Assembly: GCA_030524425.1 (NCBI GenBank)
Contig: JAUNGN010000001.1
Location: forward strand, 1 to 64,000
Direction of reading: 5' to 3'
DNA from: Clostridia bacterium
Lineage (GTDB): Bacteria > Bacillota > Clostridia > Lachnospirales > CAG-274
Length of the DNA stretch: 64,000 nucleotides
The notes under the pieces are model-generated. The model saw only the letters and a program-made list of their open reading frames with translations, ran no database searches and was not told the origin of the DNA. The translations under genes and the position numbers were made by a program. Positions 28,785-61,832 of the stretch are shown here, piece by piece (position 1 is the stretch's first letter; each line of letters opens with the position of its first letter).

Positions 28785-29522
28785 TCATTCACAGTATTTC
28801 ATTCTTCTGAATAATTCCGATATCCCAATTATAATACAGCATATCTGCGGTATTGAAAATATCAATATTTCCCTCTCATACCCATATCTGTACATAAAAA
28901 ATTCAGATATAAATATACAAAGCGAAAACAGAAGCACAAACAAACTAAAAGTATAATTTTTTCTATTTTTTATTCCCCATACAACAGCTATAAATATAAA
29001 TACAGAAAATAAAACTTCAAAAATCTGTGTAGGAAAAATATTAACCTCTCTGCCGTAAACATTATATGGATTTGTGCCATAAGGAAAAACAATACTGAAA
29101 GGTCCTTTATATGGTTTGCCAAAGCAGCAGCCAAGAGTATAGCATCCAATTCTGCTGAATATATGCTGAATAAGAAAGAAGAGTGATGAAACAGACTTTA
29201 CTCCTTCACAAGGCTTTTGTTTGTAAACCGGCCTGTAAACTACAGGAAATATAAAATAAAATACCAATACCATTCCCATAAAATGGCTGCCGGATTTAAT
29301 AAACTCCTCAAGAGAGTATGCTTCAGAAATACCTCTTAAAACACGAGAAAAAGGAGCTGAAATAAACAATGACAGAACATAGACAATATAAAGCCTTTTA
29401 TCATGAGCCTCTGTTTTATACAAGGTAAAAAACATTATCCCAAGTCCTGCTATCGTTCCAAATATTAAAAATATATCATATAAAAATATGTTTTGTCCAA
29501 AAATATAAACTGACGGACACAT
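28785..29522 (-). CDS. Lgt-like (prolipoprotein diacylglyceryl transferase family) membrane protein
   Basis: A 245-residue integral membrane protein with about seven hydrophobic spans. It has the Lgt-family core SRIGCYTLGCCFGKPY (replacing the GRxGNFxNxE of true Lgt) and the FPTQIFEVLF segment, plus SHFMGM in place of the HGGL-type motif. It belongs to the GCC-type Lgt paralogues common in Clostridia, whose substrate is not established; it is unlikely to be the housekeeping Lgt. AAAGGAGG stands before the ATG. It is the last gene of the export/NRPS operon, 118 nt after the double-glycine peptide gene; a role in modifying that system's product or lipoprotein is inference. Confidence 0.75.
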   Translation of the reverse strand: MCPSVYIFGQNIFLYDIFLIFGTIAGLGIMFFTLYKTEAHDKRLYIVYVLSLFISAPFSRVLRGISEAYSLEEFIKSGSHFMGMVLVFYFIFPVVYRPVYKQKPCEGVKSVSSLFFLIQHIFSRIGCYTLGCCFGKPYKGPFSIVFPYGTNPYNVYGREVNIFPTQIFEVLFSVFIFIAVVWGIKNRKNYTFSLFVLLFSLCIFISEFFMYRYGYEREILIFSIPQICCIIIGISELFRRMKYCE

Positions 29523-29640
29523 AACAAACCCTCCTTTTTCACGAAATGACGGAAGTTTTACCCTCCGTCATTTATTTAAGTCAGGATATTACTGCTTCGT
29601 TTCCCGCTCATAGCCGAGGGTGTAATAATGCCCTTGGCAG
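29523..29640 (-). other. Structured leader between peptide gene and Lgt-like gene
   Basis: Two structures lie here on the minus strand. The first (about 29580-29640) pairs TATTAC with GTAATA around a GC-richer loop containing ATGAGCGGGAAACGAAGC. The second is a hairpin with stem ATGACGGA / TCCGTCAT and a 10-nt loop, just before the Lgt-like ribosome binding site. Neither is followed by a T run. I could not match it to a known riboswitch class. Confidence 0.45.
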
Positions 29641-29790
29641 TTAAATCCTGTCTTTAGATGATGAAGATGCAGATGATGTGTTTCTTACATGTGCATCTCT
29701 AAGTGAGCCTCCTGTTACCTTTTCAAGAGTATCAAGATCGAGTTCTTGTTCCTCATTTTTAACTGCATTTAAATTTTTATTTTCTTCCAT
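29641..29790 (-). CDS. Double-glycine leader peptide (putative exported precursor)
   Basis: A 49-residue peptide. The leader is residues 1-28 and ends ELDLDTLEKVTGG, a classic double-glycine leader of the kind cut by C39 peptidase exporters. The predicted mature part (21 residues) begins SLRDAHVRN and ends SSSSKDRI; it has seven Ser, one Thr and no Cys, so no lanthionine, thiazole-from-Cys or disulfide chemistry is possible. The start is the ATG at 29790, 8 nt after AAAGGAGG; upstream in-frame ATGs belong to the spacer. It lies 64 nt after the giant SLH protein gene and upstream of the Lgt-like gene. The C39-ABC exporter encoded 14 kb upstream in the same operon is the natural processing partner (inference). 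Confidence 0.82.
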   Translation of the reverse strand: MEENKNLNAVKNEEQELDLDTLEKVTGGSLRDAHVRNTSSASSSSKDRI

Positions 29791-29854
29791 ATCTATATCC
29801 TCCTTTATTTTCTTTGAGGACGGATAATATGTATCCGCCCTTTTAATATAAATA

Positions 29855-32800
29855 TTATTCATCAAGAACAACAATGTTGTAAATCATCTGTGCTGCCTCA
29901 TTTCTCTTAGCAAAATCAAGAGGCTTAATAAGGTTATTGCTTCCTGTTACAATACCGCCGGATGAAAGATTTGTAATACTCTTTACTGCATAAGGTGTTA
30001 TATCATCCTTGTCACTGTAAGTAAGCTCATAATCATCTGCATTTTCAAGTCTTCCCAAACTAAGAAGCGTTCTTTCCGTAAATGCAAACATTTCTTCTCT
30101 TGAAATGTTATTATCAGGCTTAAATTCATTGTTTTCATAGCCTGCCGCAATACCCAGAGCTTTTGCTTTAAGAATATACGCACCGTAATACTTATTGATA
30201 TCAATATCATCAAACCGTTCAGTATTTTCGGTTTCAGCATCAATATTCATATCACCTTCAAGCATTCTCATAAGCATTGTAACAAATTCAGCCCTTGTTA
30301 CATTCTTTTCAGGATTAAAGAGATTATTTCCTACGCCTGCAACAATGCCTGCATCTGCAAGATACATAACTGCCTTTTCTGCCCATGTACCCTTTACATC
30401 ATCAAATACTGATTTAACTTTGTTATCATCACCTATATAATCTGACGTAGTTTTTTCCGTAACATTTTCAGAAGCAGAGGCCGCTGTTTCAGTTGTTGCT
30501 TCTGTAGCTTCAGTCCTTTTACCCCTTCCTGCTCCGCCGCCTGACGAATGTCTTTGAGCTGATGTGGTTGATTCCGTTGTTTCTTCAATAGTTTCGGTTA
30601 CAGCCTCATTAGTAACATTTACAGCAATAGTCTTTATAATAATGCCGTCTCCTGTAATTTCAGTGTAAATATCATCTGTAGTGTATGAGCCGTCAGAAAG
30701 AATATGTATAGTTCTGTCACTTGGCATTATCATTGCAGTAAGTGCAGCTGTACCTTCTGAAATACCTGAAACAAGACCTGATGAATTAACATCAGCAACA
30801 GCAGGATTGTCGCTTATCCACTTAACCTTGAGAGATGAATATTCATCTGTTACACTATCGTAAACAAGACCATAATCACCTTTTACAACATTAATATTAT
30901 CAGCCCCGTCATTTATAACAGGTGATAAGGAATCTATAAGCTCCTTTTCTTCCTTGGTAATATATCTCATTACACTTGTTGAGGCATTACCGCCTTCACT
31001 TGTAAGCAATACAAATTCAGCACTTTCCTGAGAAGCATACTCTTCATCATCAGGAGTTATTGAAACAAAAGCGTCATCATCAATTTCACAGTATAATGTA
31101 ATCTCTTCTGATGCTCCCATAACAAGATTGTCAATAACAGTTTTGCCAACAGTATTGCCTGTTGCATCAGATATAGCCTTGACTGTCACATTTTCAGCAT
31201 CAGCCGTACCATTATTTGTAATAATACTGCTAAGCTTCACTATATTTCTGTCAATAAGTTCAGAAGATATTGAATCTATTTTAAGTTCAGCAGCAGCCTT
31301 AACATCGGTATCAGCAGTATCTATAAGCTTGCTGTCCTTATAAAGCTTAACTTCAATATTACCCTCAGGAACAACAGATGAAATGCTTATGTCACCGCCT
31401 GAATACAATTTGTCAAGATTAACTGTATCTGCAAGTTCATTATTGCTGTAGAATTCAATCTTCAGATTTTCAGTATCCTCAATGCCCTCATTGCTTACTG
31501 TAACTGATACATTTGCAGCTGCATTACCGTAAATTTCATCAACAGTTATTTCAGACATTGCAATTCTCTCAAAATCACTAAAGCTTAGAGCTACAAGACT
31601 TCTTGAAGAAATATCCTCAACTGTACCATATTCCTTATCCGCAGCAGACATACCCTTAACAGCAAGTGCTGAAATACCGCCATTATTTACAAACGGTGTA
31701 ACAGTTGAATAGTTGGCGCCCTGTCCCTCTGTAACCTTCATAGGTGCAGACCAAGTGCCAAAATCATCTTCACTTTCGCATCTGAAAGCTGACATATAAA
31801 TCTGTGTTTCCACAAATCTGTTTTCAGGGTCATTTGCCTCTTCTGAAGCAGGGTCAATACCCTCCTTATATGTAAGTCCTACCTGTGTCCATAATGCATA
31901 TACATTCTGATTTTCATCAGCCACAAGCTCAAATTCACCAATCTCTGTGTCCTCTCCTGCATCTGCAATTAAATATTCAGGTATATATTCACCCTCTGTC
32001 TTATTTATAATATATACATTATTACCTCCCACATTCTGTTCAAGAAGACAATACTTGTATACATTTGAGAAATCAAGAGCCTTAATATTACCATCAGAAA
32101 GCCATGCAATATATGTTTTGTCATCAAACCTGCCAAGCTTTACGCTGTCATCGCACACGCTGTTGCTTGTTATCTGAATAGGATAGAAGAAAGTATTTGT
32201 GTCAAAATCATAAACCTGAACATAAATCTCTCTGTCATAAACCGTTTCCTGACTCTGGTCTAGGTCAACAGTATAAGCAAATATTGAAAGATTATTGTAT
32301 GAAACAGCATCACTGTCCACTACAAGAGGGTCTGTATGCTCATATGAAGCTGTTATTTCAGGCATTTCCTTCCAGAAGCCATAGTCATCATACAAATCAG
32401 TATCATTGATGAGTACATTTGTGCCTAACTTAACAAAGCTCTGACCATACCATTCCTTCTCATATACATCAAAATTACTTTCTGTTACGGTTTCACCGCT
32501 GCTTGTTACAGCCATTCCCGTTTCTATAATTTCCCTTTTATCCTCTTCCGAATATGTGTTAATCCAGCTGTTTGTTTCTGCATCATAAAACATATAAGCC
32601 GTAACCGAATAAGGATCTACAATATCTCCTATAACACCGTCATCTGATGAAGCCTCATATTCAGTCTTAGTATAATAAAGCATTACATAGTCATTACGTC
32701 CCATAAATTTGCCTGATACAAATTTAGGCTGAGTATCTGCACAATAGTCTGCAGCTGTTGTATATGTTACGTCAACAGGCTCACCGAATGATGTGCCGTC

Positions 32801-35800
32801 AAATACTGCCGATTTAATATTCATTTTGTTAAGTGCCTCAATGGCATTGTCACTTGCTGTAACCTTTTCTCCCGCACTTGACCATGCTGCAATAACAAGA
32901 CCATTATCAAGTACAAATAAATCAGGCGCATCATCCAATGTACCGTCATTATCAATAGCTGCAGGCTGTGACCACCTGCCGTTTTCATATACGGAATACT
33001 TAACTGTTGCATAGTTGTACTCATCCTTTGAAATATCATCATCAATGAATACAAGCATATATCTGCCATCGTTAAGCTTTTTAATAACACTCTTAGGATA
33101 AGGGTTTGCACCAGCAAGGAGAGTAGTTTCATTTACTCCGTTATTATTTGCAGCCATACGCAGCCTGCCTGAGCCGGAATTCCATGAACCTCTGTTATTT
33201 ATATAGCTTAAATCCATGGTTTCCATACTGTCAACGGACTGCTCAAGAATACTTTCCTCACTGTCAAGGGCAAACATACTTACTGTCTTTTCAGCAAGCT
33301 TCCACTCCTTTTTGAAGAACAGTACCTTAATTCCCAGGTATGCAGAAAACTTAACATTGCCGTTGCTGTCACCCAATGTGTCAAAATTCATATCAAATTT
33401 AGCAGTACCGCTTACCGTTACATTAAGCAAGCATGAAAGCTCAACTCCTGCCTTAAGTGTAATTGACGGAACAAGCTGAAGCGAACCATAAAATGTAAAT
33501 GCCTTTGTAGGATCTGTTGCGTCACCCTTCTTAAGCATAGTCATATCACCAAAGTCAATACCGCCGTTGCCGTCAAAGAAGCTTTCATCTGCCTGAGATC
33601 CCTTGCTTATTATTATTGCGCCGTTTACCTCACCGCTTATTTCAAAACCTATAACAATGTTTATTGCTATAGGAGTCGGTATTTTGGCTTCCATTCCAAA
33701 ACCGCCAGCACCCTTTACCGTAAAGAGAATATCCTTTAAGTAATACTCACCTATATGCTCAGGATCATCGGTTTTCTGCATTATAACATCAAGACCAATA
33801 GCAATACTTAAGGAAGCCTGTTTGGTTATTTCAGTCTTTTTCTTATTGCCATTATCAGATGTATCCGTTGCATCCTTTACCGCCTCTTTTACTGTCTGTT
33901 CCTTTTCGTTGCCGTCGCTGTCTGTAGTTTTTATTGTGGCATCCTCATTGCCCTCAGCCTTTTCCTTAACGGCATCCTTAAGCTTTTCCGTATTTGTTTC
34001 CTTATCGGCTTTTTTATCCTTGTCGCCTACTTCTCCTTCTTTACTCCAATCCTTATTAAAGCCAAATGATAAAGTTTTGTACTCTACTTCCATACCGTTT
34101 TCAACGGCAGTTGAAGCAGTAAAGTACTTATCAGTCTTTCCCGAAAGCCCCAGTCCCAAAGAAGTATCAACAGAACCCAAAAGATCAAATACAGGCTTAA
34201 TTGGAGTATCAAAACTTGCAAGAATAGTAAATGTACCTGTATATCTTGCAAATGTGATACCCGTATTATGCTCAATATATCCCTTACCGTTTTGGTCATA
34301 GAACTGAACCGTCATATATGAACCCGGAGAAATTCCTTTTGCCGCAGGATTAAATTCATAAGAAAAGCTTCCGCCCTTCTCAGGGTCTGTAACATCATCA
34401 CTGCAAATAAGCTTTCCTGTTTTATCATAGGCTCTGAATATAGCCTTATTTGCATAAACCGCCTCACTGGAGGACTTTGTTTTAATATTAATTTTTATAT
34501 TGGAATCAAAGTTTTCAACCTCATTAATTCCTATGGATGAATAATCACCGCTTTCATTTGCCTTGTAAATCTCAGCTTCTGTTACTGATATTGTATCATA
34601 TTCATCAATCTTTATTGTTTTGTATATATTTACATCCTGTGTAAAGCTGTATGTGTTACCGTCAAAGGTAACATTAACCATTGCCTTGTCAGCATCAATA
34701 AAATCCGCACTGCTTATTTGATAAGCACCTTTACTGTCTGTAACTGCTGAAACATCATTTACTGCAACAGTGGCATTTTGCACCGGCACTGTATATGTTT
34801 TTTCTGAAAATACAGCCTTTTTCTGAAGCTGTACCTTACCGTTTACAACACCCTCATCTCCATCCGTCTTTTTATAAAAGCCATAATATATAACAGGAGT
34901 CGGCGCAAGCTTTGCAACATAGCTGTATACCGAACCGACAACAGCAGATCTGTCTATGTCAAGGTTTTCGTTCTTCTCGGCTTCATCAAGAATACCGTCA
35001 CTGTTAACATCACCTGTAAAATCCTGCCACTTTGTAATATAGCCTTCATTTACAACGGAATTAAAGGTATAGGTCTTGCCCATAGTCATAGGATCAATTC
35101 TGATTTCAGTAACATTGCCTTCTTCATCAACTCCGGCTTCACGCAATATATTGTCATCAATAGTGTATACACCGCCCTGGGCCTTGCTTGAATTTCTTGG
35201 ATTAACCCTTACCTTTAAATAAGGTTCGCCGTAGATTGGAGTAATACTCGTTACCATTGCCCCCGGCTTTATATTTAATGTTGAAGCACTGCTTTCATAC
35301 CATGTAACACCGGTTCTGTCCGCAACATAATATTTGTCCACAGAATTCAGCTTGTTTTTTCTAAAGGCTGATATATCATTTCCCTCAGCATCCTTGTCAC
35401 TGTAAACCTTTGAATCATTATTCTTTGTAGTCAGAACGTTAAAGCCTGAAACATATTTTCCTGCATTGGGCACTGCCTTGATTTCAACATTATCAAGTCT
35501 TGTAACCTTCATAACATTGTTTTTATCCGAATTATGAGCTGTTACAGCTCCATCTGATGTCTGTGGAAAATGTATAAATGCAGACTTGGGGTAATACACA
35601 GGTACAACGGTAATGGTTTTGCTTTCATAGCGGTTGCCTATATATTTATCAACAAAAGCATTTTTAAAGTCAATTTTGCTGCCTTCAATAAAACCTGTTT
35701 TACCATTGCTTCCTGTTATAAAAAGTCCTGCAAGATAAACACTGTCATTAAGTCTTGAATCAACATCTGAATTTACTTTTGAAGTAAATGTAACAGAACC

Positions 35801-37852
35801 GTCTATAGACGGCTTGGAATTGCTTACGGTTGCCGTACCTGCAAGAATGTTTGTTCCTGCCTTACCTCCCGTCACTACGGAATCATAGGTATAATAAGCA
35901 TTATTACTGCTGTCAAAAGCAGATGTTGTGTAATCCTTATTTACTGTCCATACCTTAGCATCTACATAAGAATTGTATTCAGTGTTATTTTTGCCTGCTG
36001 CTGCTCTGCCGTTTGAAATATTAATTGTATAGCTTGGCGTTGCATAGTAAAGTTTTACTGAATGTATTCTTAAATCCGAATAATTGTTGCTGCCTGTAGG
36101 TTTTGTATGAAAAACTATTCTTCCCTTTTCTTTTCTGCTTTTTACAGGTACAGTACATTCATCGGTTCTCTTGCTGAATTTAATCTCACTTCCGTTATTA
36201 TTAGGATACTTTACATCATTTGAACCGTCAAAGGTAATCCAGTTTGAACCGGAGGTATAATAGCCGCTGCTTTTAACCTTTTTACACTTTTTTACTTCCC
36301 AGTATGTGCCGTTTGAAGCATTTTCCCAAACAACAGATATTTTTGTAACTCTTGAAAGATCAGTATTTATTGCATATGTATTTTCAGAGCCTGACTGTGA
36401 TGACTTTATCTGTCTGTAACCTGATACATCACTGCCCCAGTAATCATAAGCCATAATACCATACGGATCGGTTTCATTGTTTGTATCAATTTCTATTTCC
36501 TTATAATATCCGTTTTCATCCTGCTTAAGCTCATCCATATATTCAGAGGATAAAAGGCTTATGCCTGCTTCAGTACCCTGAGATGGAGAGTTTTTAAGGG
36601 TGACTATGGTTTGAGATTTTGAACTGTTTACCGTTTCCGAAGAGCTGTCAAGACTTACCATAAACTGCAAACCGTCCTGTGAGGCTGTTTCCTTAATTAT
36701 TTCAACCTCAAAGGTTCTCTCCTTAACACCCTGGGGGAACACTATTTCCCTTGCGTCAGCCTTATAGTCAATGCCGGGCTTTGCGGTTATTTCGCCTGTA
36801 GTTACATATACTGAGCCAAACTTGGCAATGCCTGCTGTTCTCTTAATTGTAACAACTGCCTTTTTATCACCTCTTGCAGCATCAATTCTTGCATCAGCCA
36901 TTTCAAACTTCTGAAGCTCATTTACATCATTATCCTCAATATTGAGATATGACTTATAATTATCTCCCAGCTCTCCGCCTGTAGGATTTGAGAGAAAGAA
37001 TAAAACCTGTTCATCAGTTTCTGAAAGACTGTCATCAAGTATCTCTGCCGTAAATGTTTTTACATACTCACCGTCAGCAAATGTAACGGAAGTTGTTACA
37101 CCGGGGATTTCATCAGCCCATTCTGAAACAGACTCGTTAGCAAAGTCAACAGCCCTTTCATTTGGAACCGTGCCCTCCTTTTCTGTCCATGACTTACGGT
37201 CCGAAATTGTTCCTGTTGAAGCATTTCTGGCATTTTTAAGTCCGCTTGCATTTGCTTTATTTTCAGACTTTTCAGAAATGCTGTCTTCAACATATTCCGT
37301 TTCAGTTTCTTCTTCTGTTTCCTCTTCTGTTTCAGCCTCAATGCCGAAAGCCTCCTCAAGAGCTTTATCAACATCAACTGCTGAGCCTGATTCAGCAGTA
37401 TTTACAACTGAAATTATGTCATCGTTCTTTTCTATGGTTTCATTTATTTCTGAAACCTCTGAATATGCATCCACAAGAGGTCTGGCATCAGGATTTTCCT
37501 CAAGAGTTGTCTTAAAAAAGCCTTCTCCCGCCTTAATAACATAATCTTCACCATACTTTGCCGAAACATCTATAGCCTTTAAATCAAGGGACACCTCACC
37601 TTTAGTACCTCCTTTTCTTACTATTGCTATTTCAATGGAACGGTTATCCTCTGATGCATTCATTGATCCTGCAAGAAATTCAAACTGTCCCTTTGGATGT
37701 GCAGCTGCAAATTCATCATCACCTCTAAGCTCCGCCCGAAACTGCTCATCATAAAGGTTTTCATATGAACCTATATCCGCATAAGCAGGCATGCACTCAC
37801 CCAAAAGCATAACAAGTGAAAGTAAACCTGCCCCAATTTTTTTAAACTGCAT
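29855..37852 (-). CDS. Giant (2665-residue) Calx-beta / CARDB / SLH surface protein
   Basis: A secreted protein with a signal peptide (residues 1-25, ending PAYAD). Domains in order: a Calx-beta-like unit split by a Glu-rich linker (about 50-310, ending FFLSNPTGG...NIEDND), a second Calx-beta (about 315-430), beta-rich repeats, an EF-hand/dockerin-like DVNSDGILDEAE near 955, a carboxypeptidase-regulatory-like fold near 1010-1060, a charged Lys/Glu linker near 1280-1350, a propeller-like region (about 1590-2090), CARDB-like units (about 2100-2250), a Big_2 Ig-like domain (about 2300-2420), a Thr/Ser/Glu linker, and three SLH repeats from about 2475 to the end (FDDVKGTWAEKAVMYLADAGI, FDDIDINKYYGAYI). 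SLH repeats bind secondary wall polymers, so it should be displayed on the cell. It lies within the NRPS/exporter operon, 83 nt after the NRPS. Its role there is not known. Confidence 0.88.
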   Translation of the reverse strand: MQFKKIGAGLLSLVMLLGECMPAYADIGSYENLYDEQFRAELRGDDEFAAAHPKGQFEFLAGSMNASEDNRSIEIAIVRKGGTKGEVSLDLKAIDVSAKYGEDYVIKAGEGFFKTTLEENPDARPLVDAYSEVSEINETIEKNDDIISVVNTAESGSAVDVDKALEEAFGIEAETEEETEEETETEYVEDSISEKSENKANASGLKNARNASTGTISDRKSWTEKEGTVPNERAVDFANESVSEWADEIPGVTTSVTFADGEYVKTFTAEILDDSLSETDEQVLFFLSNPTGGELGDNYKSYLNIEDNDVNELQKFEMADARIDAARGDKKAVVTIKRTAGIAKFGSVYVTTGEITAKPGIDYKADAREIVFPQGVKERTFEVEIIKETASQDGLQFMVSLDSSSETVNSSKSQTIVTLKNSPSQGTEAGISLLSSEYMDELKQDENGYYKEIEIDTNNETDPYGIMAYDYWGSDVSGYRQIKSSQSGSENTYAINTDLSRVTKISVVWENASNGTYWEVKKCKKVKSSGYYTSGSNWITFDGSNDVKYPNNNGSEIKFSKRTDECTVPVKSRKEKGRIVFHTKPTGSNNYSDLRIHSVKLYYATPSYTINISNGRAAAGKNNTEYNSYVDAKVWTVNKDYTTSAFDSSNNAYYTYDSVVTGGKAGTNILAGTATVSNSKPSIDGSVTFTSKVNSDVDSRLNDSVYLAGLFITGSNGKTGFIEGSKIDFKNAFVDKYIGNRYESKTITVVPVYYPKSAFIHFPQTSDGAVTAHNSDKNNVMKVTRLDNVEIKAVPNAGKYVSGFNVLTTKNNDSKVYSDKDAEGNDISAFRKNKLNSVDKYYVADRTGVTWYESSASTLNIKPGAMVTSITPIYGEPYLKVRVNPRNSSKAQGGVYTIDDNILREAGVDEEGNVTEIRIDPMTMGKTYTFNSVVNEGYITKWQDFTGDVNSDGILDEAEKNENLDIDRSAVVGSVYSYVAKLAPTPVIYYGFYKKTDGDEGVVNGKVQLQKKAVFSEKTYTVPVQNATVAVNDVSAVTDSKGAYQISSADFIDADKAMVNVTFDGNTYSFTQDVNIYKTIKIDEYDTISVTEAEIYKANESGDYSSIGINEVENFDSNIKINIKTKSSSEAVYANKAIFRAYDKTGKLICSDDVTDPEKGGSFSYEFNPAAKGISPGSYMTVQFYDQNGKGYIEHNTGITFARYTGTFTILASFDTPIKPVFDLLGSVDTSLGLGLSGKTDKYFTASTAVENGMEVEYKTLSFGFNKDWSKEGEVGDKDKKADKETNTEKLKDAVKEKAEGNEDATIKTTDSDGNEKEQTVKEAVKDATDTSDNGNKKKTEITKQASLSIAIGLDVIMQKTDDPEHIGEYYLKDILFTVKGAGGFGMEAKIPTPIAINIVIGFEISGEVNGAIIISKGSQADESFFDGNGGIDFGDMTMLKKGDATDPTKAFTFYGSLQLVPSITLKAGVELSCLLNVTVSGTAKFDMNFDTLGDSNGNVKFSAYLGIKVLFFKKEWKLAEKTVSMFALDSEESILEQSVDSMETMDLSYINNRGSWNSGSGRLRMAANNNGVNETTLLAGANPYPKSVIKKLNDGRYMLVFIDDDISKDEYNYATVKYSVYENGRWSQPAAIDNDGTLDDAPDLFVLDNGLVIAAWSSAGEKVTASDNAIEALNKMNIKSAVFDGTSFGEPVDVTYTTAADYCADTQPKFVSGKFMGRNDYVMLYYTKTEYEASSDDGVIGDIVDPYSVTAYMFYDAETNSWINTYSEEDKREIIETGMAVTSSGETVTESNFDVYEKEWYGQSFVKLGTNVLINDTDLYDDYGFWKEMPEITASYEHTDPLVVDSDAVSYNNLSIFAYTVDLDQSQETVYDREIYVQVYDFDTNTFFYPIQITSNSVCDDSVKLGRFDDKTYIAWLSDGNIKALDFSNVYKYCLLEQNVGGNNVYIINKTEGEYIPEYLIADAGEDTEIGEFELVADENQNVYALWTQVGLTYKEGIDPASEEANDPENRFVETQIYMSAFRCESEDDFGTWSAPMKVTEGQGANYSTVTPFVNNGGISALAVKGMSAADKEYGTVEDISSRSLVALSFSDFERIAMSEITVDEIYGNAAANVSVTVSNEGIEDTENLKIEFYSNNELADTVNLDKLYSGGDISISSVVPEGNIEVKLYKDSKLIDTADTDVKAAAELKIDSISSELIDRNIVKLSSIITNNGTADAENVTVKAISDATGNTVGKTVIDNLVMGASEEITLYCEIDDDAFVSITPDDEEYASQESAEFVLLTSEGGNASTSVMRYITKEEKELIDSLSPVINDGADNINVVKGDYGLVYDSVTDEYSSLKVKWISDNPAVADVNSSGLVSGISEGTAALTAMIMPSDRTIHILSDGSYTTDDIYTEITGDGIIIKTIAVNVTNEAVTETIEETTESTTSAQRHSSGGGAGRGKRTEATEATTETAASASENVTEKTTSDYIGDDNKVKSVFDDVKGTWAEKAVMYLADAGIVAGVGNNLFNPEKNVTRAEFVTMLMRMLEGDMNIDAETENTERFDDIDINKYYGAYILKAKALGIAAGYENNEFKPDNNISREEMFAFTERTLLSLGRLENADDYELTYSDKDDITPYAVKSITNLSSGGIVTGSNNLIKPLDFAKRNEAAQMIYNIVVLDE

Positions 37853-37935
37853 TGTTATTTCCTCCCTTCATTTCTTATTTAAAATTTATATATAAAGTCA
37901 CAGCTTATATTAACAGGCATAATATGCACTGTGAT

Positions 37936-40900
37936 TTACAGCATCATATTATTGATTATACCGCATATATCTTCACTGTTGGTTTCCGTAATAAAATGTC
38001 TGCCTCCTTTTATTAATTCAATATCATAATTTCCTCTTATACGTTTTTTAAGCTCCGATATAATTTTACTGCTGTTTTTTGTAAACAAATCATCACTGCC
38101 TAAAATAACGCATATTTTACAGTCTAAATCAACACTGCTATATCTTTGAGATATATACCTGAAAAACCGGTCTGTATCTTTTCTGAAGGCTGATATAATT
38201 GCAGGATTATATTTATTGTCCTCTCCTCCTGCTTTTATAAGGATTTTTTTTATAAGTCCGTCACTTAAAAGCCTCCACGGAGATACAATAAAGGGTATAT
38301 TTCCCGTTACAGACGGAGCCGCAAAAACAACGCCCTTTATTTTTTCTTTAAGCCTTTTTACAAACTCTATTACATTTACACAGCCTACACAATGTCCGTA
38401 TAAATATATATCATTATATTTTTCCACAGGTATTTCATTTATAAGGATATCTGTTATATTTGCAATATCAGCATTTTTGTCAAAAGCCGAAATATAAACA
38501 CCAGCCGCATCACAGTCAAGTCCTTTTGCAATATGCTCAAAATAATTCGGCTCTCCTCCCGCATATGGGAAGCATATAAGAAGCTTTTTTGAATTCTGCT
38601 TTTTCAGCCATATATAATATTTTTTATTGCTGATATTATCTGCAATTTTTCTAACCGAAAGTCCTTCGTAAAAATCACCGAATGTTATATCCATACCCTT
38701 TTCCTGCAGACTGCACACAATTTCAAGTATGCTTACCGAATCAAGCCCCATGTCAAATAAATTATCATTTACGTCTGCCGAAACATAATTTGAAACCACA
38801 GATAAAATTTCCTTTTCCATATTGTTGGGCTCTTTTATATTGGCTATATGGTTATCGGCACTTTTTATAAGGCTTTTTATGTCTGCCTTTCCGTTTTGGG
38901 TAAAAGGAATTTTATTAACCCTATTAAATACTGACGGCACAGCATAAACCTGCATTTTAGCAAGTATCTTTTCCTTGATTTCCGAAACGTCTGCCATACC
39001 GCTGTAAAAACATTCAAGTCTGTTGTTTACCTTTATTACAGACGCATCAGTAACATTTTTACATGACAGAACAATATTTTTTATTTCGGAAAGGTTTATT
39101 CTCATACCTCTTACTTTAACCTGGCTGTCATTCCTTCCATAAATATATATAAGACTGTCAAATCCTATTTTTCCAATATCACCTGTTTTATAGGCATTTT
39201 TATTATTCAGCTTAAAATATCCGCCTTTATCACTGTTTATATAGCCTTTGCCTACAAGCTCCCCTGCAACGCATATCTCACCCCATGTATTTACGGGAAG
39301 TATTTTATTACTGCTGTCAATAATATAAATTTCCGTATTGTCAGCAGGAGTACCTATGGGAACATCCTCATATTCTCCGCTGCATTTATACCCCGTAACA
39401 TCTATTGTACACTCGGAAGGACCATACAAATTTACAAGCTCTGCATCAAACACATTGCAAAATTCCCTGACCGTTGCTGCCTCCAGTTTTTCACCGCTTG
39501 AAAACACAGTATTAAGTGCAGGAAAATTCAGACTGTTAATTCTTACATAATTTATAAATGAATTTAATACGGAAGGTACAAAGTGAAGCTTTTCAACACC
39601 GTATAATGTAATTGCTTCAGCTATTTTGTCCGGAAATTTTTCATATCCCGGTTTTAAAAGACAAAGCCTTGCTCCGTAAATAACACTAAGCATTTCCCAG
39701 ACGGATACATCAAATGTATTTATTGTTTTCTGAAGTATTGTACCCTTAAGTCCGTAATTGTTATTTGCCCATTCAAGTCTTGATATAAGAGAATTTCTGC
39801 TTATTTCAATACATTTAGGCTCCCCTGTCGAGCCTGATGTCCACACAAGATAAGCAGTTGATTTTCCATTATATTCACCGCATACATATTCTGAATTATC
39901 AATGCCTGCTATATCCTCCCTTGTAAGGACTATATCGCAGTATTTGTCCATATTTGTAATGGTATCAGAAACAATCATAAAGGCAGCACCTGCTTTAAGA
40001 ATGCCTATTACAGCCTCTATCATTTCTATACACCTTCCTGTTTTTATACCCACAACCAATGCCTGCTTTTTGCTTATGTATGCAGCTATGCTGTCGCTTT
40101 TTCTGTCAAGCTCGTAACCGCTGATGCTTGTATTACCACAAACTACGGCTTCATTATCCGACAAATGGTCCTTAAAACATTCAATTACATCCCTGTATTT
40201 ATGCTTTGTAGCTGTAGAATTAAGCTGAGAGTAAATTTTTCTGTCCAAGGGTGAAAGAACATCTATTTCTGATATTTTTTTATTTTCCTTATCCTGATCC
40301 AATACCGATAATATTCCATTGCCAAAATTGTTTATTTGTTCCTCCGTAAAAATATCTTTTCTGTAATGAATATTAAAATCAAGCCTGTCATCATATTCTT
40401 CTGCGAAAATTCTTATAGGAACATCAAGATAACCGTTAAAATACTCTATAACCTTTCCTATTTTTATCTCAGGAATAAACTCTGAAATTTTATATGAAAC
40501 AGATACATCAAATATATTGCTGCTTACACCATTGTATTTTTTCAGTTCTTCAAAGGAATAAGATGAATATTTGAGAAGTGAAAATATATCCCTGCTTATT
40601 TTTTTACACACATCGGAAAAATACTCATTTTCAAATTCCATTACAAGGGGAAGTGTGTTAGCAAACATACCGGCCATTTCCATTTCATTTTTTCGCCTGT
40701 TGCCAAGAACATTGCCTATTATCACTTTTTTAGAGTCAGTTACTGCTGATATATAGACATATAATGATGCCATAAATTCAGACGCCATATTTTTAGCTTT
40801 TAAGGGAAGGGAAAATCTTACAATATCAGCACTGTAATCACTGCTTTCTCTTTCTGCAATTCTGTTCTGAGGTATTTTGTCAAGTCTTTTACCAAAATAT

Positions 40901-41421
40901 TCAGATGCATTTTTTATCTGTTTCTCACTTAATTCAGTATATTCAACAGCTTTGCTTTCACATTTAAACACCTGAGAGTTTCTTATTTTGTAATAGCCTT
41001 CTTCAATTTTTTTGCAGATTATAACAATAGTCACTGCATCCCCTATAAGGTGATGAAGCTTGAGAAAGCCGGCACTTTTGCCCTTATATTCAACAAAGGC
41101 AAACTCAAAAAGATTACTGCCGTATATAGACTTAAACGGAGTCCTCATTTCCTTTGACACTCTTTTATCAAGCTCACATCTTTCTCCCTCAATTACGATA
41201 TGAGGTATTTCAAGACAGGGATTTAATTCCTCATAAAGCTCCTTGTCATCACCAAGCCTTAATCTTAATGAAGGCGTACCCCATATAATTTCCGTTATGA
41301 TTTCACAAAATTCCTTATATGTAATATTAACCGAAAAATCAATTATACCGCCTATGTTTGAAACAGCCGTTCCCTTTGCTGCTATTTCGGTGTTTAATAT
41401 ATTTTTCTGAAAATTATTCAT
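37936..41421 (-). CDS. Single-module NRPS: C-A(Ser)-PCP-TE with cysteine thioesterase
   Basis: An 1161-residue nonribosomal peptide synthetase with EntF-like domain order. C domain residues 1-400 has HHLIGDA (123-129), fitting HHxxxDG apart from the last residue. The A domain (about 400-860) has YLVWTSGSTGEPK, FDVSVWE, NLYGPSE, YKTGDIG and the A10 Lys in TQNGKADIK. Reading the ten specificity positions by alignment with GrsA/EntF gives D-V-W-H-F-S-L-I-D-K; EntF (serine) is D-V-W-H-F-S-L-V-D-K. The carrier domain has MGLDSVS near residue 895. The thioesterase (about 940-1161) resembles the type II kind (ICFPYAGGE) and carries GHCVG where GHSxG is usual, with GSDD and GGRHF supplying Asp and His. 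It starts 13 nt after the second ABC gene. No MbtH, PPTase or aryl-activating partner is nearby. Confidence 0.92.
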   Translation of the reverse strand: MNNFQKNILNTEIAAKGTAVSNIGGIIDFSVNITYKEFCEIITEIIWGTPSLRLRLGDDKELYEELNPCLEIPHIVIEGERCELDKRVSKEMRTPFKSIYGSNLFEFAFVEYKGKSAGFLKLHHLIGDAVTIVIICKKIEEGYYKIRNSQVFKCESKAVEYTELSEKQIKNASEYFGKRLDKIPQNRIAERESSDYSADIVRFSLPLKAKNMASEFMASLYVYISAVTDSKKVIIGNVLGNRRKNEMEMAGMFANTLPLVMEFENEYFSDVCKKISRDIFSLLKYSSYSFEELKKYNGVSSNIFDVSVSYKISEFIPEIKIGKVIEYFNGYLDVPIRIFAEEYDDRLDFNIHYRKDIFTEEQINNFGNGILSVLDQDKENKKISEIDVLSPLDRKIYSQLNSTATKHKYRDVIECFKDHLSDNEAVVCGNTSISGYELDRKSDSIAAYISKKQALVVGIKTGRCIEMIEAVIGILKAGAAFMIVSDTITNMDKYCDIVLTREDIAGIDNSEYVCGEYNGKSTAYLVWTSGSTGEPKCIEISRNSLISRLEWANNNYGLKGTILQKTINTFDVSVWEMLSVIYGARLCLLKPGYEKFPDKIAEAITLYGVEKLHFVPSVLNSFINYVRINSLNFPALNTVFSSGEKLEAATVREFCNVFDAELVNLYGPSECTIDVTGYKCSGEYEDVPIGTPADNTEIYIIDSSNKILPVNTWGEICVAGELVGKGYINSDKGGYFKLNNKNAYKTGDIGKIGFDSLIYIYGRNDSQVKVRGMRINLSEIKNIVLSCKNVTDASVIKVNNRLECFYSGMADVSEIKEKILAKMQVYAVPSVFNRVNKIPFTQNGKADIKSLIKSADNHIANIKEPNNMEKEILSVVSNYVSADVNDNLFDMGLDSVSILEIVCSLQEKGMDITFGDFYEGLSVRKIADNISNKKYYIWLKKQNSKKLLICFPYAGGEPNYFEHIAKGLDCDAAGVYISAFDKNADIANITDILINEIPVEKYNDIYLYGHCVGCVNVIEFVKRLKEKIKGVVFAAPSVTGNIPFIVSPWRLLSDGLIKKILIKAGGEDNKYNPAIISAFRKDTDRFFRYISQRYSSVDLDCKICVILGSDDLFTKNSSKIISELKKRIRGNYDIELIKGGRHFITETNSEDICGIINNMML

Positions 41422-41434
41422 GATTAATCACACC

Positions 41435-43549
41435 TTATTTTATCTTCTGATTTTTTACCAAAGCGTAAAACATTCCCTTTTTATCAATTAATTCGTTATA
41501 TGTACCTGATTCTGATACAGTGCCCCTGTCTAAAACAATAATTCTGTCGCAGTCAGCAATAGTTGATAATCTGTGAGCAACAATTATTGCCGAAGCTTTT
41601 GTTTTGTCTATATAATCAGTAATAGCTGCCTGAGTTATGTTGTCAAGGTTATTTGTGGCTTCATCAAGAATAAGAAATTTCGGCTTATTAATAAGTGCCC
41701 TTGCCAAAAGTATTCTCTGTCTTTGTCCCTGTGATATTGTAAGGCTGTCATCAGATACAAATGTATGCAGCTTCATAGGCATTCGTTCAATATCATCTTT
41801 AAGTCCCACCGCCTCTGCAATTTCCCATACCTCCTGCTCTGATGCCATTGGATTTGTAAGGGTAATATTTGAAAATATATCTCCCGTAATAAGCTTTGAG
41901 CTCTGAAGCACTACACCAAGATTTTTTCTGTAGCTTTTTAAATTAATTTCATTAAGGTCGGTATTGTCTGCAAAAATTCTGCCGGAATCAGGTTTTTCAA
42001 AGCCTAATATCAGCCTTAGCAATGTTGTTTTTCCGCATCCGCTTCTGCCTGTTATTCCTATTTTTTCACCCTGGCTTATACTGATGCTTATATTGTTGAT
42101 TACATATCTGTCACTGTCTTTATACTTAAATGACACTTCAGAAAGCTCAATATTTCCCCGAAAATCCTTTATATCCTTTTTTTCAGACACTGTTTCAGTT
42201 TCAGCATTAAAGAAATCCTCAAGCTGAACATACAGAGAACTAAAATCAGCCCATTTATTAAGAAATTCAGCCGTTCCCTTAACAGAACCTATAAACAAAC
42301 CAAACACGGCAAGAAATGCTATAAAATCCGCACTGCTTATGGACTCTTTAATTCCTGCATAAAATAACACAAGAGTAATACAGGAAATTACAAAAGTATT
42401 AATTGCAGAAAAATGTCTGACAAAAAACGGCCTTTTTTCAGCTCTCAGTCCGTCTGAATAATATTCACTCCATTTTTTCAGCATACTGCTTTGTGCATTG
42501 CTCAGCTTAATATTTTCCATACCGCAAAAAAGCTCATACACAAAGCCCGACATATTATTTATCTTAATATTGAAATTACAGGTATGCTTTTTTAACAGCT
42601 TTGAATTAACAAAACTCATAATAAGCATAATAACAAGGCTTGCATAAACATAAGGCATAAATTCATTTGAATATAAATACATTTGTGCAATATATATAAC
42701 AGAAAGAACAAATGAAAGTGCATCTGTTATGGTACCTGCGGAAAAAATATCTGATATTTCCGATACATTTAAAATATTGTGACTGAGAGCACCGGCTCTC
42801 TTGTCTGCAAAGTAGCCAGCCTTAATGTTCAGTAATCTTGATATAACAGCTCCCTGAATATTAGCATTAATATTTGATGGTATATTTTCAGTAATAATAC
42901 TCCTGAAAATATAAAGAACTGCTGATATAATTATTATTCCCAAAAGAAGACTTGTAAGAGGAAGAATATCACTTTTTGTTCCCGAAGGAATAATATTGTT
43001 AAATATATAATACTGAGCCTCCGGAATTACCATTGAAAACAGTATTACAAAAACCGATGCTGCCAGAACCACTCCATATTCAGCAGGAGTTATACAGCCA
43101 AGCATATATTTTATAAAATCTTTTCTCTTTATTTTATCCTTATTGAAGCCTTTATAAAAACAAATTGCCTGTTCAGAAAACATACTGCTGTTTTCTGCTG
43201 TAATTCTTACTTTTCTCCCATTTTCAAAAAAGAAACACCTTCCCATAAAATCAGGCAGTATTATTTTCCCCTCATTGCCCTTAAAGCATAATATAGGAAG
43301 CATATTTTTTTTGTACCAGTCTCCCTCCAATAAAACAACTCTGCTGCTTACATCATATTTTTTCTTTATTTCCTCGATTTGGAGAGGTATGTTTTCAGCT
43401 TCAATATTTCCCTCTATATTAAAGTGTTTTAATACTCTTTCAAGCTCACTGTCACAAACCTGTTCAGATAAGGCAATAATATTCCTGAACGCCTTTTCTT
43501 TATTTTCATTATGTTTCCTTCTAAGTTCTTCAAGCTCTTTATCAAGCAT
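41435..43549 (-). CDS. ABC exporter lacking a peptidase domain (NHLM ABC2-like)
   Basis: A 704-residue fused permease-ATPase. The first 150 residues are a soluble N-terminal region without C39 catalytic residues, followed by about six spans (about 155-430) and an ATPase with Walker A TGRSGCGKTTL, Walker B FLILDEATNN and H-loop VAHRLS. The signature is TISQGQRQR, with Gln for the first Gly of LSGGQ. Size, N-terminal region and neighbours fit the second ATP-binding exporter of NHLM bacteriocin systems (TIGR03797-like), which works with a C39-bearing partner. The start is the ATG at 43549 (GGGGAGTG upstream), 4 nt after the partner's stop. Confidence 0.85.
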   Translation of the reverse strand: MLDKELEELRRKHNENKEKAFRNIIALSEQVCDSELERVLKHFNIEGNIEAENIPLQIEEIKKKYDVSSRVVLLEGDWYKKNMLPILCFKGNEGKIILPDFMGRCFFFENGRKVRITAENSSMFSEQAICFYKGFNKDKIKRKDFIKYMLGCITPAEYGVVLAASVFVILFSMVIPEAQYYIFNNIIPSGTKSDILPLTSLLLGIIIISAVLYIFRSIITENIPSNINANIQGAVISRLLNIKAGYFADKRAGALSHNILNVSEISDIFSAGTITDALSFVLSVIYIAQMYLYSNEFMPYVYASLVIMLIMSFVNSKLLKKHTCNFNIKINNMSGFVYELFCGMENIKLSNAQSSMLKKWSEYYSDGLRAEKRPFFVRHFSAINTFVISCITLVLFYAGIKESISSADFIAFLAVFGLFIGSVKGTAEFLNKWADFSSLYVQLEDFFNAETETVSEKKDIKDFRGNIELSEVSFKYKDSDRYVINNISISISQGEKIGITGRSGCGKTTLLRLILGFEKPDSGRIFADNTDLNEINLKSYRKNLGVVLQSSKLITGDIFSNITLTNPMASEQEVWEIAEAVGLKDDIERMPMKLHTFVSDDSLTISQGQRQRILLARALINKPKFLILDEATNNLDNITQAAITDYIDKTKASAIIVAHRLSTIADCDRIIVLDRGTVSESGTYNELIDKKGMFYALVKNQKIK

Positions 43550-43553
43550 AATA

Positions 43554-45707
43554 TCACTCCCCGCCATTTGAAACAAGTCTGTAGTATACACCCTTTTTTT
43601 CTATAAGCTCACTATGTGTTCCTCTTTCTTCCACAGTACCGTTATTAAATACAAGAATTTCGTCACAGTTCCTTATTGTGCTAAGTCTGTGAGCAATAAT
43701 TATGAGTGTAATACCCAGTGAAATTATGTTTTTCATAACCCTGGCTTCTGTTTCTGTATCAAGATCGCTGGTAGCCTCATCAAGTATCATTATTGCAGGC
43801 TTTTTAACAAGAGCTCTTGCTATTTCTATTCTCTGTTTTTGTCCGCCTGAAAAATTTCTTCCCTCTTCTGATATATTTTCATAGTAGGCATTTTTTCTCA
43901 ATACAATGTCATCGTGAAGGCATGCTGTCCTGCAGGCTTTTACTACATCATCATACCCAACGGAATTATCCCACATTGTAATATTATCAAATAATGTTCC
44001 ATCATAGAGATGAACAGACTGACTGACAACAGCAACCTTTGAATAAAAATAATCTCTCAAAAGTTCATTTTTTTCTGAATTGCCGTAATATATATGTCCG
44101 TCACATTCTTTATAAAGACCTGCTATAAGCTTTGCCATTGTAGACTTACCGCTTCCGCTTCCCCCTGCCAAAGCAACACTTCCGCCTTTATTAACGCTAA
44201 AACTTATATTTTCTATTATGTTAGAGCCATATTCATTATATCTGAAACCGACATTTTCAACCCTTACACTTCCGTCCATAAACTTAGTCTGGTTTTCTCT
44301 TTCATCAAGAAAAATGTCGTCATCTTTATACTTCATAGTATCATCTGTTCTTTCCGCTATACTTTTAAATTTAAATATATTGGATATTGAATTAATGACA
44401 TTACCGACAGGCACTAAAAATGCCGCAATCATACCTAACACAGCCACAGCTATACCCACAGAAAAAACACCTGAAAGTATTTCATAGACACCTGTTACAA
44501 GAACCGCTACTGACACCGTAAGATTAATAATATAAAATATGCCCGATGATATTATATTAACAAGAGCTATCTTCTGTCCCGTTACAATATTGGCCGCCGA
44601 AAGACCTGTAAGTCTCGAAAACACAGCTTCTTCACAGGCACAGGATTTTATTGTCTCCATCATACTGACAGAAGATGCTACAGAGCCCTGATAAAAGCCG
44701 CTGTTCTGGTTATAAAGTGACGAAAGGGTACTCATTTTACCGGAAGAATATAATACTGCGGCTATGTTTAATGCTATTGCTCCAATTCCTATTATGCCTA
44801 TATAAATATTAAATACAAACACAGCTGCGGAATATACAGCAATCAATACAATTTGAAAAAATATCGGAGAAATATATCTGCAAACAAGATATGACATTTC
44901 AAAACTGCCAAGCTGTCTGTTTGCAAGCTCTCCCGGTGTTCTCTGACCAAAGAAATTTACGGGAAGCTTAAATATTTTTTCCATAAAACCAATACTTAAC
45001 TTAATATTTATAAATTTTTCAATCTCATAATTAAGCCCGGAATATAAAAATGAGGCCAAAAAAGATAACATAATTACCGTAAACATAGCTCCGGCTATTA
45101 TATTAATGTTTTTTGTATTTCCATCCAAAAGCACATAGTCTATGTATGCAGAGCTGAAAAAAGGCTCTATAATGCTTAATACTGTTATAACAAAAAATAC
45201 CAATGAAGAAAAAATCAAAACAGGCGCATATTCAATTACACTGTTAAATGTAAATCCTCCAAACACACCCTTTTGACTGTCAGCAGTTTTTTCAAACTCT
45301 TCTGTTTTTTCAAATGTAAGTGCTATACCCGTAAAACTGCTGTCAAATTCATTTTCACCAATCTTAAGCCTGCCCGATGCAGGATCATTAATGTAATAAT
45401 AACCATTTTTATAACCACAGTACACAACAAAATGACACATATTCCAATGTATTACTGCCGGAGGAACTATTTCCCTTATACTCTCCGGAGTTTTCTTATA
45501 TGCCCTGCATACAAGACCGTTTTTTTCTGCTGCCCTTTTTATTCCTTTTGCGTTTACTCCATCTCTTGAAACATTGCAGTCCACTCTAAGCTGTTCAAGT
45601 GATATGCTTTTTTTACCGAAATATCTTAAAACCATTGCAAGAGAGGCAGCACCGCACTCCACATTTTCCATCTGCAGAACAAGGGGTACATTAACTTTTT
45701 TTCTCAT
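43554..45707 (-). CDS. C39 peptidase-containing ABC exporter (NHLM ABC1-like)
   Basis: A 717-residue peptidase-exporter that should cut double-glycine leaders and export the mature peptide. Residues 1-130 are a complete C39 domain: QMENVECGAASLAM with the catalytic Cys, HFVVYCGY with His and INDPASG with Asp. Six spans follow (about 160-450), then the ATPase with GGSGSGKSTM, FSGGQKQRIEIARAL, MILDEATSDLD and IAHRLS. It matches TIGR03796-type NHLM exporters. The start is the ATG at 45707, overlapping the HlyD gene stop (TGATG). The likely substrate is the 49-residue leader peptide encoded downstream in the operon (inference). Confidence 0.92.
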   Translation of the reverse strand: MRKKVNVPLVLQMENVECGAASLAMVLRYFGKKSISLEQLRVDCNVSRDGVNAKGIKRAAEKNGLVCRAYKKTPESIREIVPPAVIHWNMCHFVVYCGYKNGYYYINDPASGRLKIGENEFDSSFTGIALTFEKTEEFEKTADSQKGVFGGFTFNSVIEYAPVLIFSSLVFFVITVLSIIEPFFSSAYIDYVLLDGNTKNINIIAGAMFTVIMLSFLASFLYSGLNYEIEKFINIKLSIGFMEKIFKLPVNFFGQRTPGELANRQLGSFEMSYLVCRYISPIFFQIVLIAVYSAAVFVFNIYIGIIGIGAIALNIAAVLYSSGKMSTLSSLYNQNSGFYQGSVASSVSMMETIKSCACEEAVFSRLTGLSAANIVTGQKIALVNIISSGIFYIINLTVSVAVLVTGVYEILSGVFSVGIAVAVLGMIAAFLVPVGNVINSISNIFKFKSIAERTDDTMKYKDDDIFLDERENQTKFMDGSVRVENVGFRYNEYGSNIIENISFSVNKGGSVALAGGSGSGKSTMAKLIAGLYKECDGHIYYGNSEKNELLRDYFYSKVAVVSQSVHLYDGTLFDNITMWDNSVGYDDVVKACRTACLHDDIVLRKNAYYENISEEGRNFSGGQKQRIEIARALVKKPAIMILDEATSDLDTETEARVMKNIISLGITLIIIAHRLSTIRNCDEILVFNNGTVEERGTHSELIEKKGVYYRLVSNGGE

Positions 45708-46603
45708 CAGCTCCCACCTCCCAAAAGCCATTTATAAGGAGGCTTTTCTGAAATAACTATTGAACTGCTGCATACCGTTCCTGTTTCAACATTAATATTT
45801 CCGCTTCTGCTTTCTGACCAGTACAGCCCGCTTTCTGTATTTTCATCAGAAAGCAGGTTTATATATACAGCTATATATGTTTCATTTTCATCAAGAATGT
45901 TGGGAATATTATAAACGGCAAATTCCTTCTGTGCATCACTTTTAGTTATAATTGACTCTCCAATATCTGCAACATATCCGTTTATATAACCGAACTTTTC
46001 TCTCGGCGCATAATTGGGTGATACCTGAACGGCACATCCCTTACTTATGTTGTTTTTCTGACTTGTTGGAATGAATGCAAATATCTGCCTTTGATTATTG
46101 TCATTACGCCTTGCAGCAACTGAGGCTACGGCATCGCCTGTATTCACATAAGCTCCCTCACTTGAAACCGAAAGTACAGTACCATCAGTTTTTGAAGTAA
46201 TAACAGATGTGTTATAATAATCCTGCCTTAATTTTTCAATTACAGCATCATCACTGTTACTGCTTACTGCCTGATTAAGTTGTTTTAAAACCTCCTCATT
46301 TGGAATAACCGCAATAATATCTCCCGCTTTAACGCTTTCTCCTGTTTTTATGGTTATATCTGAAACTATTCCCGAAATTGATGCAGTTATTTTATCAATT
46401 CCCGCCGTTGGGTAAACAATGCCCGTTACATCTACCGTATTCACAACATTTCCGAAAATAAACCACACAACAGTAAAAATTAATCCCAAAATAAATATCA
46501 AAACAAGAAAAAATGTTGAAAATGACAGCTTTGTAATGTTCTTTTCTATTGAAAACTGATCCTTATAATTGTCAATAGCTTCCTTTCGGAATAAATTTCC
46601 CAT
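45707..46603 (-). CDS. HlyD-family export adaptor (NHLM secretion protein-like)
   Basis: A 298-residue membrane-fusion-type protein: one span near residues 28-52 (LSFSTFFLVLIFILGLIFTVVWFIFG), then biotinyl-lipoyl-like halves (ASISGIVSDITIKTGESVKAGDIIAVI and KTDGTVLSVSSEGAYVNTGDAVASV) separated by a short helical hairpin of about 25 residues. This is the HlyD/TIGR03794 layout of NHLM exporters. In a Gram-positive cell it would extend from the membrane into the wall. It starts 15 nt after the binding-protein gene stop and overlaps the peptidase exporter gene by one base. Confidence 0.87.
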   Translation of the reverse strand: MGNLFRKEAIDNYKDQFSIEKNITKLSFSTFFLVLIFILGLIFTVVWFIFGNVVNTVDVTGIVYPTAGIDKITASISGIVSDITIKTGESVKAGDIIAVIPNEEVLKQLNQAVSSNSDDAVIEKLRQDYYNTSVITSKTDGTVLSVSSEGAYVNTGDAVASVAARRNDNNQRQIFAFIPTSQKNNISKGCAVQVSPNYAPREKFGYINGYVADIGESIITKSDAQKEFAVYNIPNILDENETYIAVYINLLSDENTESGLYWSESRSGNINVETGTVCSSSIVISEKPPYKWLLGGGS

Positions 46604-46618
46604 TTACAAGACCTCCCA

Positions 46619-47704: not shown

Positions 47705-47730
47705 AACATCACCCCGCAATAAATCAGCAT

Positions 47731-47757
47731 ATTATATGATTATATTAACATAAACAA
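47731..47757 (-). promoter_or_regulatory. Possible promoter of the export/NRPS operon
   Basis: On the minus strand TATAAT (47731-47736) is preceded by TTGTTT (47752-47757) with a 15-nt spacer, which is short. It is the best candidate between the regulator's terminator and the first operon gene. A LytTR site might lie just upstream but I saw no clear direct repeat. Confidence 0.35.
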
Positions 47758-47828
47758 AATATAAAAACATTATTTATGCACGAATTGCCTTTTGTGTGAA
47801 TGAAAACTCAAATTCCGCAAAAAAAATA

Positions 47829-47850
47829 AACCCTGCTTTTAAACAGGGCT
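47829..47850 (-). terminator. Terminator after the LytTR regulator
   Basis: On the minus strand AAGCCCTG / CAGGGTTT form a hairpin with an 8-nt loop, followed by TTTATTTTTTTT. It directly follows the regulator stop, so the regulator and the export operon are separate transcripts. Confidence 0.85.
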
Positions 47851-47852
47851 TA

Positions 47853-48653: not shown

Positions 48654-48905
48654 CAAACATTTTCTCCCAAAAATCATTCTATATTGTCATTAATTATAGC
48701 AAATAAACTTCAAAAAATCAAATGAGGAAATGTTTTTTTTGCTTGCAGAAATTAAACAGTAAATTAAACCAAACCTATTCTAAGTAAAAAGCACTTTCAA
48801 GGCTAAAAAATAAGAGATATAACATTTTTCTTTAATATAAGAAAGAGCTGTACACAAATTAACATAAAAATATTAACCTGCGGCAGCCCATTCTCTTCTT
48901 ATATC

Positions 48906-52157: not shown

Positions 52158-52198
52158 ATATGTTGATTTCGGAAAACCAACTACTGCGAGAATATCTT

Positions 52199-52777: not shown

Positions 52778-52809
52778 AAAAAACCGACCTCCCAATCGTT
52801 AGATTTTTG

Positions 52810-54005: not shown

Positions 54006-54112
54006 TTAAATCACTCCTTTTTATAAATTTTATATAAAACCTATTATACGCAATTAATATTTTCCGCATAATGTGGTTTTTACAGTACATTTAATAATAA
54101 CTTCTTAAATAC

Positions 54113-55716: not shown

Positions 55717-55728
55717 AATCACCACTCC

Positions 55729-56088: not shown

Positions 56089-56106
56089 AAAGTCCACCTC
56101 CAAAAA

Positions 56107-56433: not shown

Positions 56434-56456
56434 TTTAATCACCTCATATTTTTTAT

Positions 56457-58151: not shown

Positions 58152-58152
58152 A

Positions 58153-61740: not shown

Positions 61741-61772
61741 TTATATCACCTCAATTAATTGCCATAAAAGAT

Positions 61773-61826: not shown

Positions 61827-61832
61827 AAAACA

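Follow-up and report, generated by a model that had tools for sequence, protein, structure and literature searches.

A conserved double-glycine peptide encoded with a C39 exporter, an NRPS and an Lgt homologue in Clostridia, possibly a secreted signal or ligand

An operon of a Clostridia bacterium (Lachnospirales; CAG-274) encodes a 49-residue double-glycine precursor whose 21-residue core, we tentatively propose, is secreted as a linear peptide of a conserved envelope system and acts outside the cell as a self-made signal or ligand, while an NRPS and an Lgt homologue of the same operon would make a separate acyl-serine-type product. We put the probability of this reading at about 0.42. The leader, the C39 exporter, the operon and the conservation of the core, on which it builds, are established at the level of sequence. 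The stretch of DNA analysed, hereafter the window, comprises 64,000 nucleotides (assembly GCA_030524425.1, contig JAUNGN010000001.1, positions 1 to 64,000).

The peptide gene and its operon

The operon runs on the minus strand in the order SBP lipoprotein, HlyD, C39 exporter, second ABC exporter, NRPS, giant S-layer protein, peptide and Lgt homologue, with the peptide gene near its end:

47853-48677 (-): LytTR DNA-binding protein without receiver domain, a possible regulator
47825-47854 (-): intrinsic terminator, 13-bp stem and 6 T, separating the LytTR gene from the operon
46619-47719 (-): substrate-binding-protein-like (SBP) lipoprotein; Peripla_BP_6, lipobox LYGC
45707-46603 (-): HlyD-type adaptor; TIGR03794, above cut-off
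43554-45731 (-): C39 peptidase-containing ABC exporter; Pfam C39 116.8 bits, TIGR03796-like, below cut-off
41435-43591 (-): second exporter ABC protein; TIGR03797-like, below cut-off
37936-41421 (-): NRPS of one module, C-A-T-TE; A domain with the code D-V-W-H-F-S-L-I-D-K, read as Ser; TE with Cys as nucleophile (GHCVG)
29855-37852 (-): giant surface protein of 2665 aa; signal sequence, Calx-beta, CARDB, Big_2 and C-terminal SLH domains
29791-29803 (-): Shine-Dalgarno AAAGGAGGATAT, 5' of the peptide ATG
29641-29790 (-): double-glycine peptide gene; 28-aa leader (29790-29707), 21-aa core SLRDAHVRNTSSASSSSKDRI (29706-29644) and stop
28785-29522 (-): divergent Lgt homologue of 245 aa, adjoining the peptide in 6/6 class A loci (defined below); its one fold match is E. 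coli Lgt 5AZB

The peptide reading frame starts with ATG, is preceded by aaaggaggata (including AAGGAGG) and reads MEENKNLNAVKNEEQELDLDTLEKVTGG followed by SLRDAHVRNTSSASSSSKDRI. Its leader, LDLDTLEKVTGG, has the make-up of a double-glycine, C39-exported precursor: it ends in GG (C-terminal end LEKVTGG), carries spaced hydrophobic residues before the GG and, at 28 residues, falls within ~15-30 aa. The core contains no Cys and seven Ser among its 21 residues; the calculated monoisotopic neutral mass of the free 21-mer is 2273.15. A strict leader rule (ATG, Shine-Dalgarno and [LIVM]xx[LIVM]xx[VI][TSAN]GG) gave one match in the window versus none in 60 first-order random windows. The peptide matched nothing in the family libraries (Pfam, NCBIfam), and no paralogue was found in its own genome. 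As far as sequence comparison goes, the 49-aa peptide gene is genuine, selected, linked to an exporter and part of a conserved cluster. The first-pass annotation had described a Cys-free, Ser-rich double-glycine precursor matched to a C39 exporter of the same operon, with no dedicated RiPP-modifying gene at hand, and on all these points it holds: the exporter at 43554-45731 shares strand and operon with the peptide and is the sole C39 protein of the genome, and no lanthipeptide, radical-SAM or YcaO-type enzyme is encoded in the operon (28785-48677).

The exporter trio resembles the NHLM set, with scores of 162.7 bits for TIGR03794 (cut-off 156.2), 682.6 for TIGR03796 (853.3) and 537 for TIGR03797 (709.4), so that the adaptor alone exceeds its cut-off. 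The LytTR gene upstream is probably a transcription unit of its own, separate from the operon. Farther along the window, an IS3-type transposase pair (51357-52795) lies between the operon's upstream genes and a nitrogen-related cluster (52959-62483) that encodes an NMT1-like binding protein, an ABC transporter, allophanate hydrolase, a urea carboxylase-like protein and DUF1989, and resembles a urea amidolyase cluster.

The NRPS is the sole Condensation protein of the genome and thus has no upstream module. Its C domain carries HHxxxD[AG], and its A-domain code, read by eye from an alignment, is that known for Ser in EntF-like domains. In all aligned sequences the thioesterase (TE) nucleophile is Cys (GHC); C82, D182 and H213 (alignment A4 numbering) are invariant, which combines a Cys nucleophile with a late Asp. 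The TE model (pLDDT 80) has SulM and ObiF1 as its top fold matches. SulM and ObiF are Cys thioesterases that form four-membered rings and have a relocated Asp (PMC6668435, PMC11298585). A single-module, Ser-type NRPS of this kind could make N-acyl-serine or its beta-lactone. Among 392 genomes of the order, seven carry this NRPS: the six with class A loci and G047, whose contig is cut at the end. In G047 (L072, L073) the NRPS and exporter genes are split into several frames, through decay or assembly errors.

The Lgt homologue, directly downstream of the peptide in six of six loci, was overlooked by the first-pass annotation. It has the Lgt fold by profile (Pfam LGT 48.7 bits, cut-off 24.9) and by model (pLDDT 76), for which E. 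coli Lgt 5AZB is the single significant fold match, and an Lgt profile run against PDB sequences returned no match. Two further Lgt copies, one of them canonical, are encoded in the genome. Four residues before a conserved Glu, these two copies have a conserved Arg, which we take to be Arg239 of E. coli Lgt; all five homologues aligned have Ile, an assignment of moderate certainty drawn from an alignment of distant homologues. This replacement suggests that the reaction may differ. In G008 (L046 2877-4736), and also in G023 and G035, the Lgt homologue and the SBP lipoprotein form one ORF, with the lipobox-like stretch of the SBP still visible at the junction.

Related loci and the conserved core head

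Related loci of the window's family were found starting from the C39 protein. Class A peptides, defined by the core head SL[KR]DxHxR directly after GG, occur in six loci of five genera (the window, G008, G023, G035, G013 and G007), and a weak peptide homologue is present in G053. A search for homologous peptides, suggested by the first-pass annotation, therefore succeeded, and yet the variable core that it expected did not appear, the N-terminal part being conserved. Across the six peptides, M1, K5, D18 and GG of the leader and S1, L2, D4, H6 and R8 of the core are invariant. The Ser-rich tail is restricted to one clade of four of the six loci (the window, G008, G023 and G035); the tails of G013 and G007 lack the Ser run (QSVDN, QPKDS), and the NRPS is nevertheless present. 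The Ser run thus loses its standing as the key feature, and the tail was rejected as an NRPS target, since it is not conserved and the NRPS is; if the NRPS handles a Ser of the peptide at all, the invariant Ser1 would be the one conceivable candidate. Judged by its codons, the class A core is under purifying selection: synonymous changes approach saturation with few amino-acid changes (window versus relatives, pS ~0.7 and pN 0.17-0.29; Fisher p = 2.4e-4 for the window/G023 pair).

All six class A loci have the Lgt homologue as the next gene downstream of the peptide and contain the NRPS in their cluster; class A peptide and this NRPS co-occur in 6/6 within the family. Where the assembly allows, the association of class A core, NRPS and Lgt homologue is without exception (Fisher p 5.7e-7 within the family, uncorrected for kinship); the link is strong, and as it rests on six related loci of one family, kinship inflates it. 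A profile scan of GTDB genome contigs with the Lgt alignment returned five loci, G035, G023, G008, G013 and G007, two of them from sheep and roe-deer rumen. In the exporter tree the window groups with NRPS-free loci and with G013/G007 (100/100), the G008/G023 exporters being far away, and in the NRPS tree it groups with G008/G023/G035 (87/89). Peptide, NRPS, giant and Lgt thus stay together while the exporter differs, and two distant exporter lineages (38% identity) serve the same peptide/NRPS/giant module. As a separate observation, G008 encodes, 3' of its exporter (L046 9909-14608), an LPG_synthase_C protein, an MFS protein with a large N-terminal part and a Leu/Phe-tRNA-protein transferase, which brings two aminoacyl-tRNA-dependent enzymes into one cluster; similar ORFs occur in G023.

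A second group of loci, G016, G009, G040 and G014, has the same exporter type (C39 56-64% identical to that of the window). In each of them a giant SLH protein gene is followed directly by one gene for a Cys-free double-glycine peptide, with neither NRPS nor Lgt in the locus. Their peptides belong to other core classes (ETVIGxDNxIKS; LNPxRVDIHPYDDDVKxRM). These loci suggest that the basic unit consists of exporter, peptide and giant, and that serving as an NRPS substrate is not the peptide's primary role. Immediately after the peptide gene, G009 encodes a LytTR response regulator and a GHKL histidine kinase, and in G040 a GHKL kinase and LytTR regulator pair lies upstream of the exporter; G014 has no kinase next to the peptide. 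The arrangement in G009 and G040 is the layout of double-glycine pheromone systems, in which a peptide lies with a kinase and regulator (review PMC7595303), and favours a signal. Tandem double-glycine peptides were also seen: six upstream of the exporter in G007 (C79:24358-25801), which share an almost identical short leader MTKINDDDLNNVSGG but differ in their cores, several of them containing P[HNR]Y motifs, and five with very short cores before another NHLM-type exporter (L080 7299-8202; G036:C97:21299-22202).

Signal or ligand, and alternative readings

We favour a signal or ligand mainly because the NRPS-free relatives keep exporter, giant and peptide, some of them with GHKL kinase and LytTR regulator. 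The C39 domain would cut after the GG, and a complex of SBP, HlyD, C39 exporter and second ABC protein would export SLRDAHVRNTSSASSSSKDRI. Outside, the conserved head would be recognised by a dedicated partner, be it a receptor, the SBP lipoprotein or the giant protein, and the recognised peptide would work as a self-made signal or ligand rather than a pore-forming bacteriocin. A separate, small lipid product of the acyl-serine type, belonging to the same system, would most likely come from the NRPS and the Lgt homologue, which occur only with the class A core; the peptide may report or control the making of this product. Substrates of PCATs are known to signal or compete (PMC7018657). Counting for the proposal are the invariance of the core head in six loci of five genera, the purifying selection and the sole C39 exporter in the same operon; the core's length of 21 residues and its high hydrophilicity also appear to suit a ligand better than a membrane-active bacteriocin. 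Three points weigh against it. The class A peptides have no kinase/regulator pair as neighbours, and the window has only the lone LytTR protein without receiver domain. The core head is kept between genera, and signal peptides usually diverge between species. Finally, an action of either enzyme on the peptide would better account for the strict link of the class A core with NRPS and Lgt.

This last point leads to the best-surviving alternative, a ribosomal/nonribosomal hybrid, which we regard as somewhat unlikely. Here an NRPS-made N-acyl-seryl thioester (or beta-lactone) would be joined to the peptide, for example at the Ser1 freed by GG cleavage, and/or the Lgt-like enzyme would add a glycerolipid to give a lipid-anchored peptide. 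Besides the constant company and adjacency of the genes and their retention with both exporter lineages, the NRPS without upstream module and its SulM/ObiF-like Cys thioesterase are consistent with such joining. An acyl donor is suggested by G492, outside the order, which has homologues of the NRPS (31%), Lgt (26%) and giant (31%), a GLUG protein and a double-glycine peptide whose core is unrelated; there a KS, a second KS without active-site Cys, an ACP and a ketoreductase (KR) precede the NRPS and Lgt homologue (L096 11584-19012). However, no enzyme capable of linking the peptide to the product of the NRPS was identified, the peptide offers Lgt no Cys, the Ser tail varies between loci, and the system occurs without NRPS and Lgt. 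G053, of another family, encodes a giant homologue and a class A-like peptide (core SLRNVHKTETVDISEDTRNKI), and no NRPS was detected in this 80% complete genome, whose contig begins at the giant gene. In its fullest form the idea amounts to a new class of product, a C39-exported peptide with the head SL[KR]DxHxR, capped by an NRPS acyl-seryl unit (through the Cys thioesterase, possibly via a beta-lactone) and/or given a lipid by a repurposed Lgt that would need no Cys, and displayed with a giant S-layer-type protein; this we consider unlikely.

It is likewise unlikely that the peptide helps to assemble or anchor the giant S-layer-type protein, leaving the cell alongside it and binding to it on the outside. 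The peptide does directly follow the giant gene in the window, G008, G023, G035 and G053 as well as in the NRPS-free G016, G040, G009 and G014, and its class tracks that of the giant. Against this, G007 carries peptide, exporter, Lgt and NRPS with no giant homologue on its 26-kb contig, and the giants of G564, G464, G598 and G751 have neither NRPS nor double-glycine peptide alongside (the G751 and G598 contigs are cut), the first two speaking against anchoring. Export without modification as a signal or bacteriocin, the other option of the first-pass annotation, survives in its first half, now our leading reading. A class II-like bacteriocin would fit the double-glycine leader, the C39 exporter and the NHLM-type exporter subunits, but is quite improbable: the core is short, very hydrophilic, rich in Arg and Ser and kept between genera, and no immunity-like gene was recognised in the operon. 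A chance ORF or pseudogene, conceivable for a short gene without a family match, is contradicted by the homologues in six loci, the codon pattern, the Shine-Dalgarno and the random-window test, and can practically be dismissed.

Should the signal or ligand reading be right, Clostridia of gut and rumen possess a peptide-exporter-surface-protein system that has not been described before, and one of its branches has taken in both an NRPS bearing a rare Cys thioesterase and an Lgt homologue in which a key residue is missing. A role of the Lgt family in specialised metabolism and the joining of ribosomal and nonribosomal products would then become testable.

Comparison with known systems

No published description of this system was found in the open-access literature. 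RiPPs of the lanthipeptide/sactipeptide type were rejected, as 28785-48677 encodes no dedicated enzyme and the core has no Cys. With NHLP/Nif11 RiPPs the operon shares exporter subunits related to TIGR03794/03796/03797; membership was rejected, since their leaders measure 66-85 aa (PMC4289311), whereas the present one has 28, is unrelated to nitrile hydratase or Nif11 and comes without the modifying enzymes of those systems. Lipidated RiPPs (lipolanthines, goadvionins, DAG-RiPPs) similarly cluster a ribosomal peptide with lipid-type enzymes, but here there is no lanthionine or MNIO chemistry, the precursor has neither Cys nor lipobox, and the Lgt homologue lacks the arginine at the position of E. 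coli Arg239. Unlike the NRPSs of ObiF (obafluorin) and SulM (sulfazecin), the present C-A(Ser)-T-TE module has no aryl carrier protein or MbtH domain; the thioesterases agree in their Cys nucleophile and in an Asp late in the fold, and ObiF and SulM are the nearest solved structures to the TE model. ComC/Blp-type pheromone systems differ in that class A peptides have no adjacent kinase and a core conserved between genera, and that the operon combines an NHLM-like exporter pair and a lipoprotein with NRPS, Lgt and a giant S-layer-type protein. They share with it the short precursor, the leader ending in GG, the C39 exporter with its adaptor and, in two related loci (G009 and G040), a GHKL kinase with a LytTR regulator next to either the peptide or the exporter.
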